Source of the DNA: Halorubrum hochsteinianum | Lineage (GTDB): Archaea > Halobacteriota > Halobacteria > Halobacteriales > Haloferacaceae | DNA length: 64,000 bases | Direction of reading: 5' to 3' | Assembly (NCBI RefSeq): GCF_023702125.1 | Contig: NZ_CP098415.1 | Coordinates: 1,488,001-1,552,000, forward strand | Shown: in pieces, positions 18,200-60,076 of the stretch | How the letters are laid out: each line of letters opens with the position of its first letter | Position numbering within the stretch: the first letter of the stretch is position 1 | Translations under genes and position numbers: made by a program | The notes under the pieces: model-generated | What the model was told of the DNA's origin: nothing | Database searches by the model: none | What the model saw: the letters and a program-made list of their open reading frames with translations, nothing else

Positions 18200-18296
18200 T
18201 AACGGAGTAGTCTTACCGGAAATTCGCCCCGTGCGAGTGATAAAGTTGCTGTTATCGATACAGGACGGCGACGATTCGATTTATAAACCGAAACGC

Positions 18297-18547
18297 GGTG
18301 GCGCGTGCCGGAGAGCGCCGCCCCGCGGCGCGAACCGCACGCGCGAGGGAGTCGCGAGCGGACGGGCGACCAAAGGGAGCTCGGAGCGAGCGACGAGGCT
18401 GGGGAGGCGTGAGGTGCTGTGCGGAGCGGGGCGGGACTTGAAGGGGCAGCCGCGAGGGCGAAGCACGCCGTAGCAAGCACCGCAGCGAGCGGCGCGAGCG
18501 AGGAGCGCAGCAAGGCGCGCGAGCCCTCGCGGCTGGGGCTTCGGCGG
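18297..18547 (+). repeat. Dispersed structured element, copy A (candidate structured RNA)
   Basis: Copy A lies in the 521-bp gap between aIF2-gamma and the DUF5810 gene. From its 5' end: GGTGGCGCGTGCC; stem P1, GCGCGTGC (18301-18308) with GCACGCGC (18337-18344), enclosing hairpin GCGCCGC-ccc-GCGGCGC (18315-18331); a weaker P2 closed by GTCGC (18351-18355) and GCGAC (18390-18394); a constant core GACGAGGCTGGGGAGG; and stem P3, 13 bp (18447-18459 with 18523-18535). TTTATAAA at 18280-18287 lies 10 bp outside the 5' end. The closing pair of P3 is T-G here (TGAAG with CTTCG). A degenerate second copy of the 3' end follows at 18578-18600. Confidence 0.8.
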
Positions 18548-18708
18548 CCGTGTCGCCGGTAACGACTGTCTCGTATCGAGCGGCTGCGGCTTCGGTGGTC
18601 CAGTCTGTAGTTGTTCTAGACCCGACAACACCGTTCCGATCGTTCGACGCGTTTCCCACGTCTGAGGCCGACGCGGCTTTACGGCTCACCGACGAACCCA
18701 CGCCCGAC

Positions 18709-25859: not shown

Positions 25860-26125
25860 GGCGCGTGCCTGCGAGGCCGCTCTGCGGCCGAGCAGCGCCG
25901 CGCGAGGGAGTCGCTGGCCCCGGAGCGAAGCGGAGGGTGCCAGCGACGAGGCTGGGGAGGTGTGAGGCTGTGCGGTCGCGGTGCGGGGCGGGACTCGAAG
26001 GGGTAGTCGTGAGGCGGGCGCAGGCGACGCAAGCACTGGAAGGAGCGAACGGAGTGAGCGACTGAAGCGCGCAGCGAGCGTGCGCCCGCCTCGCGGCTGG
26101 GGCTTCGGTGGTGTCCGTGTCGTTC
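25860..26125 (+). repeat. Dispersed structured element, copy B (candidate structured RNA)
   Basis: Copy B fills the gap between cofD and the AT-richer island. P2 is a perfect 8-bp stem GTCGCTGG (25910-25917) with CCAGCGAC (25940-25947). P3 is 19 bp: 26004-26022 with 26081-26099, including three T-G wobbles (TAGTCGTGAGG facing CCTCGCGGCTG). P1 is weaker than in A or F, but its inner hairpin GGCCGC-tct-GCGGCC is intact. No TATA box precedes it. The 33-bp 3' end (26093-26125) is repeated exactly at 26162-26194. Confidence 0.8.
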
Positions 26126-32367: not shown

Positions 32368-32679
32368 CCGCCGAAGCCCCGGCCGGGAGGCTGTCCCTTC
32401 GAGTCCCGCCCCGAACCGCCCAGCACAGCACCTCACGCCTCCCCAGCCTCGTCAGTCGCCGTCGCTTCGCTCCGGCGACTGACTCCAGCGAGAATCGAAG
32501 ATTCTCTGGCAGCGAGGGACACGGTCCCTCGGGCAACCGGGCTTCGCCCGGTGACAGCCGGCGCTACGCGCCGGCGACAGCGTGGCGCGACGCGCCACGG
32601 GCAGTCGGGCGAAGCCCGACGACCTCGCGCGTGCTCCTCGCGGCCGCCTTCGGCGGCACGCTCGCAGGCACGCGCCACC
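32368..32679 (-). repeat. Dispersed structured element, copy C, with six tandem hairpins
   Basis: Copy C reads on the minus strand, 5' end at 32679. TTTATAA at 32689-32695 lies 10 bp outside. P1 (GCGCGTGC with GCACGCGC) is intact. Between P1 and P2 is an array of six short hairpins at plus positions 32490-32506, 32513-32531, 32536-32552, 32557-32575, 32581-32599 and 32604-32620. Arms are 6-8 bp, loops 3-5 nt, with 4-6-nt spacers of the type GGCA/GACA. P2 is GTCAGTCGCCG with its perfect complement; P3 is shortened to a few pairs but keeps CGAAG and CTTCG. Confidence 0.8.
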
Positions 32680-32709
32680 GCAGATTCATTTATAACCGGT
32701 CGACGCCGA

Positions 32710-38775: not shown

Positions 38776-39060
38776 CCGCCGAAGCCCCAGCCGCGAGGCA
38801 GACAGACGCTCGTTGCGCTCCTCGCTCGTTCACTCCCTGCGGTGCTTACGTCGCCTCTGTCTGCCTCGCGGCTGCCCCTTCGAGTCCCGCCCCGCCCAGC
38901 ACAGCACCTCACGCCTCCCCAGCCTCGTCGGTCGCCGTCGCTCCGCTCCGGCGACCGACTCCAGCGAGAATCGAAGATTCTCTGGCAGCCGGCGCTACGC
39001 GCCGGCGACCTCGCGCGTGCTGGCTCGCGGCCTGTCGGCCGCTCGCAGGCACGCGCCACC
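38776..39060 (-). repeat. Dispersed structured element, copy D (candidate structured RNA)
   Basis: Minus strand, 5' end at 39060, directly downstream of tmcA. TTTATAAA (39070-39077) is 10 bp outside. P1 intact. Two tandem hairpins (plus 38966-38982 and 38988-39006), both identical in sequence to hairpins 1 and 4 of copy C. P2 GTCGGTCGCCG with its complement. P3 is a perfect 19-bp stem (38788-38806 with 38856-38874). Its outer 11 bp match copies B and E, but the inner 8 bp are different and still fully paired. Confidence 0.8.
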
Positions 39061-39098
39061 GTGGATATATTTATAAATAGTCGCCGTCGCCCCCCCCC

Positions 39099-47887: not shown

Positions 47888-50590
47888 CTATCCGGTGTTC
47901 TTCATCCCGGCGGCGATGCCGTTGACGGTGAGCCGCAGGGTGCGCTCCTCCTCGTCGGTGCGGTGGGTGCGCCCGAGCAGGTTCGCTTGGAGCAGGTTCA
48001 GGGGGTCGACGTAGGGGTTCCGGCGGTCGAGGCTCTCTTCGAGCCACTCGCGGCGGAGCAGTTGGTCGCGACCGCTGATCTCCAAGACCAGTTCGCGGCC
48101 GCGCTCGTACTCGGCGACGAGTTCCGGGAAGAAGCGCTCGCGGAGGTCGTCGTCCGCCAGGTCGGCGTACTCGGCGGCGATCTCCGGCTCGGTGCGCGCG
48201 AGCGCCAGCGAGGCGTTGTCGAGCGTCGTGCGGAAGAACGGCCACTCGTCGAACATCTCGCGGAGGACCTCCATTCCCTCCTCCTCGCCGACCTCGTCGA
48301 GGTAGGCGTCGATGCCGGAGGCGATCGCGTACCAGCCGGGGAGGATGAGCCGGGTCTGCGTCCACGAGAACACCCACGGGATGGCGCGTAAGTCCTCGAC
48401 GCTGCGCTCGCCCGACCGGCTCGCGGGCCGAGAGCCGAGGTTGAGGTTCTCGACGACGCTGATCGGCGTCGCCTGCTCGAAGTAGGAGACGAACCCGTCC
48501 GTGTTCAGCAGGTCCCGGTACGTCTCGCGGGCGGCGGGGGCCATGGTCTCCATCGCCTCCACCCACCGGTCGGGCACGTCCTCGACCGGCTCCTCGTTCG
48601 CCTCCTTCCGGGCGCGGATCTGCGCGTCGAGCATCTGTTCGAGCTCGCGCTCGGCGATCCGCGGGTTGGCGTACTTCTCGGCGATGGCCTCGCCCTGCTC
48701 GGTGAACTTCACCTGGCCGGTGACGGTCTCGTTGGGGAGCGCGAGCAGCGCCTCGTTCATCGGGCCGCCGCCGCGCGAGATGGACCCGCCGCGGCCGTGG
48801 AACAGCCGGAGGGTGACCTCTTCCTCGCGGCAGAACCGGGCGATCCGGCGCTGGTTCTCGTAGAGGTCCCAGTTGGCGGCGAGGAACCCGTTCTCCTTGT
48901 TGGAGTCGGAGTAGCCGAGCATGACCTCCTGGACCTCGTCCCGGGCCTCCAGCGCGGTCGCGTACGCCTCGTTCTCGAAGAGCGTCCCGAGGATGCGCTC
49001 GGCACCGTTGAGCGCCGACTCGGTCTCCAAGAGCGGGACGACGTCGACCGCGCAGTGGTCCGGCAGGGAGACGACCCCGACCTGGTCGGCCAGGAACAGC
49101 ACCTCCAGGACGTGGCTCGGCTCCTCGGTCATCGAGATGCAGTAGGTGTCTATCGCCTGCGGGCCGTACTCGTCCTGCCAGTCCGCGAACGACTCGAACC
49201 GCCGGAGGACGCGCTCGGTCGTCTCGGACACGTCGCCCGGCTCGTCGAGGTCGACGACGGGGTCCTCCTGTAGTATCGCCTCCGTGAGGAACTCCTGCCG
49301 CTCCTCCTCGTCCATCTCGCGGTAGTCGACCCCCTCGACGCCGACGGCCTCGGCGACGGCCTCGGTGTGGTTCTCACGGTGGTCCCGCAGGTCGAGCGAC
49401 GCCAGCGTGAGCCCGAAGGTGTCGACCTGTCGGCGGAACGGCTCGACGAAGGACTCGAGGACCGACTCCTGCCCGTCCTCGCGCAGCGAGTCGGCGATGA
49501 CGTCGAGGTCGTCGAGGAAGGCGTCGCCGTCGGGGTACTCGCCGGGCCGGACGTCGTTCACGCGGTCGAGTCGCTCGCGCATCAGCCGGAGCTTCTGCCG
49601 GTACGGCTCGTCGGGGTAGCGCTCGCGCGCCTCCTCGACGACGGTCGGGAACCGGTCGGCGTCGGCCGCGAGCGACCGCGCCAGCGCGTCCCCGGCGGCG
49701 TACCGGTCGCCGTCCTGACTCAGCACGGCGGAGAGGCGCTTACAGCGGTCGCGGTACTTCTCGACGGCGACCTCGCGCTGGCGTTCCAGCGTCTCGTCGG
49801 TCACCTCGGGGGTGACGAACGGGTTCCCGTCGCGGTCGGAGCCGGCCCACGAGCGGAACTCGAAGAGCTTCGGGCAGTCGACGTCGTCGTACTCCTTCGA
49901 GATGCTCTCCTCGAACTCCTCGTAGGCGTCGCCGACGACGTCGAACAGCGTGTTCTCGAGGTACCACTGGACGTTCCGCGCCTCGTCTTCCGGCTCGGGC
50001 GCTCGCTGACGGACCTGTCGAGTGCCCCACAGGCTGGTCACCTCGGCGGTGACGTCGCGCCAGACGGCGCGCCGCTCGCGGTCGGTGAGGTTGCGCTCGT
50101 CGAGCTCCTCCAGGTGGTTCGCGATGGAGCGGAGCTTGGACTTCACCGTCGAGCGCCGGGCTTCGGTGGGGTGGGCGGTGAACGTCGGCTCGATGAGCAC
50201 GTCCGCGAGCAGCTCCTCTAACTCCTCGGCGTCGACGCCGGCCTCGGCGAACTCGGCGACCGTCGCGTCGAAGGAGTCGTGGAGGGCGGTGCCGTCGTCG
50301 GCGTTCCGCACCGCGCGGACCCGCTCGCGCTCCTCGGCGAGGTTGATCAGCTCGAAGTACGTCGTGAACGCCCGGGCGACGACCTCCTCCCGGGTGGTCG
50401 AGAGGTCGTCGACGGCCTCGTGGAGGGCGTCGCGGTCGGCGGCGTCGCCGCGCCGGTACGCGATGGCGGCGTTCCGGAGGGACTCGACCGTCTCGTACGC
50501 CTCGGTCGAGGCCTGCGCGGCGAGGACGTCCCCCACCAGCGCCCCGAGCTCCCGAACGTCCGTCCGCACGTCTCGATTGTATAGGTCCAT
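47888..50590 (-). CDS. ppc: Phosphoenolpyruvate carboxylase
   Basis: 900 residues from ATG at 50590 (MDLYNRDVRTDVREL), the bacterial-type length. TTAAAA (plus 50617-50622) lies 27-30 nt upstream and excludes a longer start at 50671. Catalytic segments are seen: FTAHPTEARRSTVKSK, GSDRDGNPFVTPEVT, LGYSDSNKENGF and FHGRGGSISRGGGP; the C-terminus ends MKNTG. It makes oxaloacetate from PEP and bicarbonate to refill the TCA cycle. Confidence 0.95.
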   Translation of the reverse strand: MDLYNRDVRTDVRELGALVGDVLAAQASTEAYETVESLRNAAIAYRRGDAADRDALHEAVDDLSTTREEVVARAFTTYFELINLAEERERVRAVRNADDGTALHDSFDATVAEFAEAGVDAEELEELLADVLIEPTFTAHPTEARRSTVKSKLRSIANHLEELDERNLTDRERRAVWRDVTAEVTSLWGTRQVRQRAPEPEDEARNVQWYLENTLFDVVGDAYEEFEESISKEYDDVDCPKLFEFRSWAGSDRDGNPFVTPEVTDETLERQREVAVEKYRDRCKRLSAVLSQDGDRYAAGDALARSLAADADRFPTVVEEARERYPDEPYRQKLRLMRERLDRVNDVRPGEYPDGDAFLDDLDVIADSLREDGQESVLESFVEPFRRQVDTFGLTLASLDLRDHRENHTEAVAEAVGVEGVDYREMDEEERQEFLTEAILQEDPVVDLDEPGDVSETTERVLRRFESFADWQDEYGPQAIDTYCISMTEEPSHVLEVLFLADQVGVVSLPDHCAVDVVPLLETESALNGAERILGTLFENEAYATALEARDEVQEVMLGYSDSNKENGFLAANWDLYENQRRIARFCREEEVTLRLFHGRGGSISRGGGPMNEALLALPNETVTGQVKFTEQGEAIAEKYANPRIAERELEQMLDAQIRARKEANEEPVEDVPDRWVEAMETMAPAARETYRDLLNTDGFVSYFEQATPISVVENLNLGSRPASRSGERSVEDLRAIPWVFSWTQTRLILPGWYAIASGIDAYLDEVGEEEGMEVLREMFDEWPFFRTTLDNASLALARTEPEIAAEYADLADDDLRERFFPELVAEYERGRELVLEISGRDQLLRREWLEESLDRRNPYVDPLNLLQANLLGRTHRTDEEERTLRLTVNGIAAGMKNTG

Positions 50591-54260: not shown

Positions 54261-54385
54261 GCGCGTCGATTCGTCGGCCCCGAATTTGAACCCTCGGCTG
54301 TACGTCGTTGAACTCGCTGAGATAGTGACGCCCGAGGGTCCAGTCGCTCGGCGATGTGGCGGTCCGATCGACGCGACCGAGAACG

Positions 54386-54646
54386 CCACCGAAGCCCCAG
54401 CCGCGAGGCGGGCGCACGCTCGTTGCGGTCCTCGCTCGTTCGCTTCGCTCACTCGCTGCGGTCCTGCCGTCGCCTGCGCCCGCCTCGCGACTGCCCCTTC
54501 GAGTCCCGCCCGACTGCGACCGCCCGCACCTCACGCCTCCCCAGCCTCGGCGGACGGCCCGGCGCGGGCGGAGCCGCGCCGGACCGCCGCCTCCCTCGCG
54601 GGGCCCTCGCGGCCGCCGAGGGCGGCCGCTCGGTGGCGCGCCGTCC
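54386..54646 (-). repeat. Dispersed structured element, copy E (candidate structured RNA)
   Basis: Minus strand, 5' end near 54646, just downstream of the inositol-monophosphatase gene. The 5' part is diverged (GGCGCGCCACC) and P1 is lost. P2 is GGCGG...CCGCC with a long inner GC stem. P3 is 19 bp (54398-54416 with 54475-54493) with one T-G wobble on the element strand. The constant core and 3' end CGGCTGGGGCTTCGG are intact. TATTTC 12 bp outside the 5' end is a weak TATA candidate. Confidence 0.72.
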
Positions 54647-59556: not shown

Positions 59557-59663
59557 CTCTCCGCTCCTACCCGCGGTCGACGTATCAACGTTACCGTTCG
59601 TCGGCACGGGCGGGAACCCCGAACCGCACTCAGGGAGTGGATGGTAGTAGTGATCACGCGTGC

Positions 59664-59907
59664 GGTGGCGCGTGCCGACGAGCGCCCGACAGGGCGCGAG
59701 TCGCACGCGCGAGGGAGTCGACCGGTCGGAGCGAAGCGGAGACCGGTGGACGAGGCTGGGGAGGTGTGAGGCGCGGTGCTGTGCGGGGCGGGACTCGAAG
59801 GGGCAGCCGCGAGGACGAAGCACGGCGAAGTAAGCACTGGAAGGAGCGAGCAGCGCGAGCAACTGAAGCGCGCAGCAAGTCGCGCGAGGCCTCGCGGCTG
59901 GGGCTTC
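59664..59907 (+). repeat. Dispersed structured element, copy F (candidate structured RNA)
   Basis: Plus strand, in the 520-bp gap between priS and a small membrane gene. P1: GCGCGTGC (59668-59675) with GCACGCGC (59703-59710), enclosing GCGCCC-gaca-GGGCGC. P2: ACCGGTC (59721-59727) with GACCGGT (59741-59747). P3: CAGCCGCGAGG (59804-59814) with CCTCGCGGCTG (59888-59898). No good TATA box at the 5' end. The tail GTGTTCGTGTCGATCAGCG resembles that of copy B. Confidence 0.8.
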
Positions 59908-60076
59908 GGAGTGTTCGTGTCGATCAGCGATCCGTAAGGAACCACACCACCGTACGGGTGAGCGGCTGAGGTCCCGGACCGTTCCCGCCGGTAACGGCGC
60001 GTCTCGGATCAGCCTACCCCGACCACCGGCACGCTTTTTTCGGTGGGAACTGTCGACGCCCACGTTCTCACCCTCC

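Follow-up and report, generated by a model that had tools for sequence, protein, structure and literature searches.

A six-hairpin array in Halorubrum hochsteinianum is probably a stack of one 45-nucleotide mobile double hairpin

Within a 64,000-nt stretch of the 3.06-Mb genome of Halorubrum hochsteinianum (NZ_CP098415.1, positions 1,488,001 to 1,552,000; hereafter the window, with coordinates counted from its first letter), one copy of a roughly 300-bp element, interspersed through intergenic DNA, carries six short hairpins in a row. This raises the question of what the array is made of and how it came to sit inside another repeat. Comparing copies of the host element, and orthologous genes with and without related inserts, we find that the array is probably a stack of double hairpins, each about 45 nt long and all copies of a single non-autonomous mobile DNA element. 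The host element has roughly 120 copies in its own genome by pattern counts, about 86 of which were read individually; six lie in the window:

18290–18600, − strand: host-element copy
25860–26120, − strand: host-element copy
32389–32682, + strand: copy C, whose conserved blocks flank the hairpin array on both sides
38776–39062, + strand: host-element copy (copy D)
54380–54640, + strand: host-element copy
59660–59910, − strand: host-element copy

At the position of the array, most copies read GACTCC followed directly by CTCGCGCG, and the array sits exactly at that junction, from which it is absent in about 75 other host-element copies. Copy D and the array-less copies define the edges of the insert, and all six hairpins of a preliminary description of this DNA were recovered at exactly the positions it gave:

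32487–32623, + strand: whole hairpin-array insert of copy C, 137 nt, between GACTCC and CTCGCGCG
32490–32506, + strand: hairpin 1, 7-bp arms, loop GAA
32513–32531, + strand: hairpin 2, 8-bp arms, loop ACG
32536–32552, + strand: hairpin 3, 7-bp arms, loop TTC
32557–32575, + strand: hairpin 4, 8-bp arms, loop TAC
32581–32599, + strand: hairpin 5, 8-bp arms, loop GAC
32604–32620, + strand: hairpin 6, 7-bp arms, loop GAA

All arms are perfectly paired and all loops are 3 nt long, with spacers, in order, of TGGCAG, GGCA, GACA, GACAG and GGCA. One small correction to the preliminary description concerns hairpin 1, whose loop it read as CGAAG. It had also named the outcome that would undo it, an array unique to this copy and born of random GC palindromes. 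That outcome does not hold: two further copies in the same genome carry the same six hairpins at 99% identity, and relatives of the array are found throughout the genus and outside it. Chance is ruled out by 40 dinucleotide-preserving shuffles of the window, which yielded 143 two-hairpin arrays, 2 three-hairpin arrays and none longer, against one six-hairpin array in the real window. The 137-nt stretch also folds far more stably than its shuffles (z = −7.3 as DNA, −6.6 as RNA). An Rfam scan returned no family at its gathering score. A CRISPR array was rejected, as the spacers are short and conserved while the hairpins differ, and the Rfam CRISPR-DR20 score of 24.8 bits falls below the 42-bit cut-off.

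Hairpins are gained or lost two at a time. Taking two 45-nt segments, AGCGAGGG...GGTGAC and AGCGTGGC...GACGAC, out of the 137-nt insert of copy C leaves the 47-nt insert of copy D in every letter. Copy D therefore matches hairpins 1 and 4 because pair 2+3 is nested inside pair 1+4, with pair 5+6 appended:

32487–32510, + strand: outer pair, opening half (hairpin 1, 24 nt), identical to the first half of the copy D insert
32511–32555, + strand: nested 45-nt pair (hairpins 2 and 3), after TGGC within the outer pair, an exact difference between copies C and D
32556–32578, + strand: outer pair, closing half (hairpin 4, 23 nt), identical to the second half of the copy D insert
32579–32623, + strand: appended 45-nt pair (hairpins 5 and 6), after GAC, an exact difference between copies C and D
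38963–39009, + strand: single-pair insert of copy D, 47 nt (hairpins 1 and 4), lacking both the inner and the appended pair

The identity of the two copy D hairpins with 1 and 4, and the lack of hairpins at this position in copies A, B, E and F, had been reported correctly. The gain or loss of modules as units is supported as well; what fell was the single hairpin as that unit, since insert lengths and the order of halves both move in pairs. Sequence comparison resolves the 45-nt pair into a 24-nt half, AGC–(7-bp stem, NNN loop)–TGGC, and a 21-nt half, A–(7-bp stem, NNN loop)–GAC. At the intergenic position, inserts in this and other genomes measure 47/49, 91–94, 137 or 140 nt, that is, two, four or six hairpins.

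Nesting imposes an order that can be read as brackets, with the 24-nt half opening and the 21-nt half closing. Balanced order was found in 20 of 27 arrays of at least four hairpins (these counts are not independent events), against a mean of 6.4 and a maximum of 14 in 2,000 shuffles of the order; several of the unbalanced arrays were cut short, or mistyped through a decayed hairpin. Codon-parsed inserts at five gene sites gave 22 balanced of 27, and by our reading the search pattern clips two of the remaining five, a decayed unit is present in two more, and L269 alone is a genuine exception.

The same pairs lie inside protein genes, as codon-position GC and conserved protein on both sides show for many modules. 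At least 20 distinct gene sites exist, and in the 20 examined every insert is in sense orientation and in phase 0. GAC directly precedes the insert at 13 of these sites and GGC at three. Of all GAC in these genes (both strands counted), 42% is phase-0 sense, so chance alone would not be expected to give every insert the same phase; selection against other frames would suffice, as would targeting by codon phase or the two together. Centre-to-centre spacing modulo 3 proved uninformative on frame, because the two unit types differ in phase. Each pair encodes 15 amino acids of a hydrophilic, Ser/Gly/Asp-rich kind (the SEAQRASG–SRTQSGD type), and peptides from coding arrays include SEAQRASG, SEGQSPSG, NRASPGD, SRTQSGD and SRAKPDD.

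Pfam assigns the genes to 5-formyltetrahydrofolate cyclo-ligase, DEAD helicase, CHY zinc finger, histidine kinase, class I tRNA synthetase, MutL, phosphorylase, CBS/MaoC, carboxyltransferase, GSDH and others. AlphaFold models of the cyclo-ligase with its insert have a mean predicted local distance difference test score of 35 (three sequences), and a PDB sequence search with this protein found no relative. The histidine kinases offer a separate observation: in L096 and L101 of the window genome, and in L134, L270, L276, L284, L297 and L300, the N-box codons NSVEHGST form a unit-like hairpin that is repeated around the inserted pairs, and the N-box may be a source of modules.

Orthologues with and without inserts differ by clean joins, with no target duplication and with lengths of 45, 90 or 135 nt. 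At the cyclo-ligase site most genomes are empty and others carry 45, 90 or about 132 nt more at the same point; different Halorubrum species hold the empty site, only the outer pair, only the inner pair (L210) or the nested form. Mapped on the gene tree, presence and absence demand at least seven changes, four of them forced by well-supported branches; these are gains, losses or exchanges, to which the gene tree assigns no direction. The DEAD-box helicase has two such sites, empty in most genomes and filled with up to 45 extra residues (+135 nt) in G004 or G044.

Pairing was measured on 106 units cut by codon phase from five gene sites. Its mean is 95%, and 77 units are perfect compared with 0.2 in a codon-shuffled control; the other 29 keep uncorrected mismatches. 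In coding units, A·C/C·A mismatches (15) outnumber G·T/T·G (5), and no G–T pair was seen among 21 context-defined pairs. This argues against selection on RNA structure and for copies that were perfect on arrival and later decayed. A terminator or other RNA-level selection is thus unsupported, as is the transcript-level role suggested in the preliminary description, for which the mismatch types would run the other way.

Arms come in a limited set of types that recur across species, much as the 'library' of hairpins anticipated earlier, and they are more conserved than the first reading of differing arms allowed. Arm changes are compensated across genera, for example CGAGGAAC.../...GTTCCTCG against ACCGGCC.../...GGCCGGT in G403. 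The module matches 48 of 52 Halorubrum genomes, and a scan of the genome collection drew almost exclusively named Halorubrum species. Strong matches beyond the genus fall in other genera of the same family (G395, G326 and G392) and in another family (G403, G341, G291 and G365); weak matches, at E values of about 1e-4, may be chance.

We propose that the 45-nt double hairpin would insert immediately 3' of a short target (GAC or GGC in most cases), leaving the target undoubled. With GGC between its hairpins and GAC at its end, each element would bring new targets, so that further copies could land inside or behind it and produce nested, tandem, bracket-ordered arrays. Copy C would then have started as an outer pair of the copy D type, into which one pair was put and behind which another was added. 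Inserts of 45, 90 or 135 nt in genes, being in one frame and hydrophilic, would be tolerated, and their stems would decay afterwards by point mutation. The events were presumably mostly insertions and the element selfish rather than functional; the agent would be a DNA-level recombinase or transposase supplied in trans, probably one that recognizes hairpins or single strands.

Several points weigh against this proposal. Mobility is what we infer: no transposition was observed and no cognate enzyme was found, and none of the matches searched lies on a plasmid, phage or viral contig. Four of the 20 gene sites, and the intergenic site (after TCC), depart from the GAC/GGC rule. The outer intergenic pairs are 47–49 nt rather than 45, one 66-nt insert (L264) among the distinct inserts listed breaks the series of two, four or six hairpins, and a few arrays, such as L269, are unbalanced. 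Sampling began from the copy C sequence, which biases the sample towards its relatives. Part of the pattern of presence and absence could stem from precise loss, from gene conversion between copies and from exchange among species.

One competing account identifies the agent. The double hairpins would be terminal-only relics of insertion sequences (IS) of the IS200/IS605 type, fused left- and right-end hairpins moved by a Y1 HUH transposase in trans through single-strand peel-and-paste 3' of a short target. The logic matches in its two hairpins, the lack of target duplication and insertion after a short motif (GAC or GGC at 16 of the 20 gene sites); Haloquadratum has 52-bp terminal-only palindrome-associated transposable elements (PATEs) that are thought to be mobile (PMC3119063), and 41 of 52 Halorubrum genomes carry Y1 genes. 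However, neither the window genome nor the array-rich G018 and G044 has a Y1 candidate, whereas G049 has Y1 and no array match, and the double hairpins upstream of Y1 in four IS elements resemble inserts, with varied left-end positions and other spacers, rather than parental ends. Because array-rich genomes lack Y1, a resident Y1 transposase is not required; Y1 may have mobilized the elements in the past in genomes that now lack it. We regard descent from IS200/IS605 ends as unlikely.

A second account dispenses with dedicated mobility. Template switching, replication slippage and gene conversion between copies would spread the hairpins, and quasi-palindrome correction would keep the stems perfect. 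In its favour, one two-unit block was duplicated in tandem in situ (L212), and an array elsewhere in the window genome (L007, G000:C1:1382904-1383001) is inverted internally between two hairpins whose loops are complementary (GGGCTTCGCCC and GGGCGAAGCCC). These processes would hardly carry one kind of module to 20 unrelated gene sites, clean empty counterparts being known for some of them; the changes seen are nesting 45-nt pairs, and the mismatches left in 29 of 106 units were not corrected. Gene conversion and slippage are probably at work alongside the mobile double hairpin, but we doubt that they account for the arrays by themselves.

The last alternative, that the hairpins are retained for a function as structured non-coding RNA, terminator or useful flexible protein linker, can point to strong predicted folding, to the uniform frame and hydrophilic peptides in genes and to a host element that is itself conserved between the genes flanking copy C, yet it is very improbable given that presence at the same sites varies among species, G·U pairs are not in excess in coding copies, no Rfam family reaches its gathering score and the modules are alike in intergenic and coding DNA.

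Among known systems, Rickettsia palindromic elements (RPEs) behave in a similar way: short selfish palindromic repeats found between genes and in frame within unrelated protein genes that stay intact (PMC10969869, PMC1950309). The haloarchaeal pairs share both locations and have orthologues without insert; the likeness is one of form and placement, and in contrast to RPEs of about 100–150 bp the double hairpin is 45 nt long, nests, sits after GAC/GGC and is archaeal. GTAG/CGTC repetitive extragenic palindromes (REPs) have short loops, unpaired tags of a few bases, alternative complementary stems and intragenic units, the CGTC group having no known transposase (PMC3733652). Stem length and variable complementary arms are similar here, but those are bacterial families, and the tag here is GRCA, with spacers GGCA/TGGCA/GACA and no GTAG or CGTC. 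Double-hairpin and other hairpin-forming elements of mitochondria (Allomyces, sponges, Volvox) spread mostly between genes and occasionally within them (PMC2800124); those are organellar, and the nested pair order and frame-preserving length are observations from the haloarchaeal elements.

From haloarchaea themselves, SMR-A of Haloquadratum is about 110 bp long with inverted terminal repeats, lacks a transposase and target duplication, moves by enigmatic means and favours the palindromes of other mobile elements as insertion sites (PMC3119063). The 45-nt unit likewise is haloarchaeal, has no transposase and leaves no target duplication; unlike SMR-A, it has two separate palindromes and no usual terminal inverted repeat, nests, and enters genes in frame. 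A further double-hairpin kind, with 9-bp arms, 3-nt loops and spacer TGTGCGA or CGCACA, lies upstream of Y1 genes (L354, L358, L365 and L346) at varied positions in IS200/IS605-type left ends, which recalls the insertion of SMR-A into PATEs. PATEs share with the pairs the lack of target duplication and insertion 3' of a short target, whereas the pairs also occur in genomes with no Y1 candidate (the window genome, G018 and G044). The element lacks a defining feature of RPEs (size), of REPs (tag) and of SMR-A (terminal repeats), so it belongs to none of them; by analogy, it would be a short palindromic mobile repeat and a variant distinct from all three. Full-text searches of the literature turned up no account of these arrays, which is weak evidence given that many subscription papers lie outside their coverage, and a 45-nt double-hairpin element seems not to have been reported from archaea until now.

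The host element has features of its own. It contains several strongly covarying stems, has no Rfam match, and in many copies is followed directly beyond its right end by a TTTATAA box. Hairpin modules integrate into it at several different points and in both orientations. A third kind of hairpin pair (GCGAGAGC..GCTCTCGC, spacer TTGAAA, CCGGAC..GTCCGG) occurs at L085, L235 and L319, inserted either in this host element or within an array, in one orientation or the other. Copy C stands between convergent genes for isocitrate dehydrogenase and an Lrp-like protein (named by reading their translations, with no family search). The host element occupies this intergenic region in about ten other Halorubrum genomes; among the loci read, only the window genome (six hairpins) and G018 (one pair) carry the array, and G028 has, at a different point, a hairpin pair of another kind. 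Elsewhere in the window, ARAGORN calls a transfer-messenger RNA (47991–48482, + strand, 27-residue tag), which is likely spurious for an archaeon.

Taken to its widest, and here we are tentative, the double hairpin may represent a widespread and undescribed class of archaeal micro-transposon: frame-neutral at 45 nt, placed 3' of GAC/GGC by a dedicated recombination system, self-nesting into balanced-bracket arrays, and repeatedly adding 15-residue modules to conserved haloarchaeal proteins. Archaea would then have their own equivalent of the Rickettsia palindromic elements, built on a smaller and more regular unit. Since a pair spans 15 codons with an open frame, each insertion would add a protein module without breaking the protein, as in class I tRNA synthetase, MutL and helicases, and since nesting would record the order of insertion, an array could reveal its own history. 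With clean empty sites and culturable Halorubrum strains available, how such a short piece of DNA would move without a resident Y1 transposase has become a testable question.
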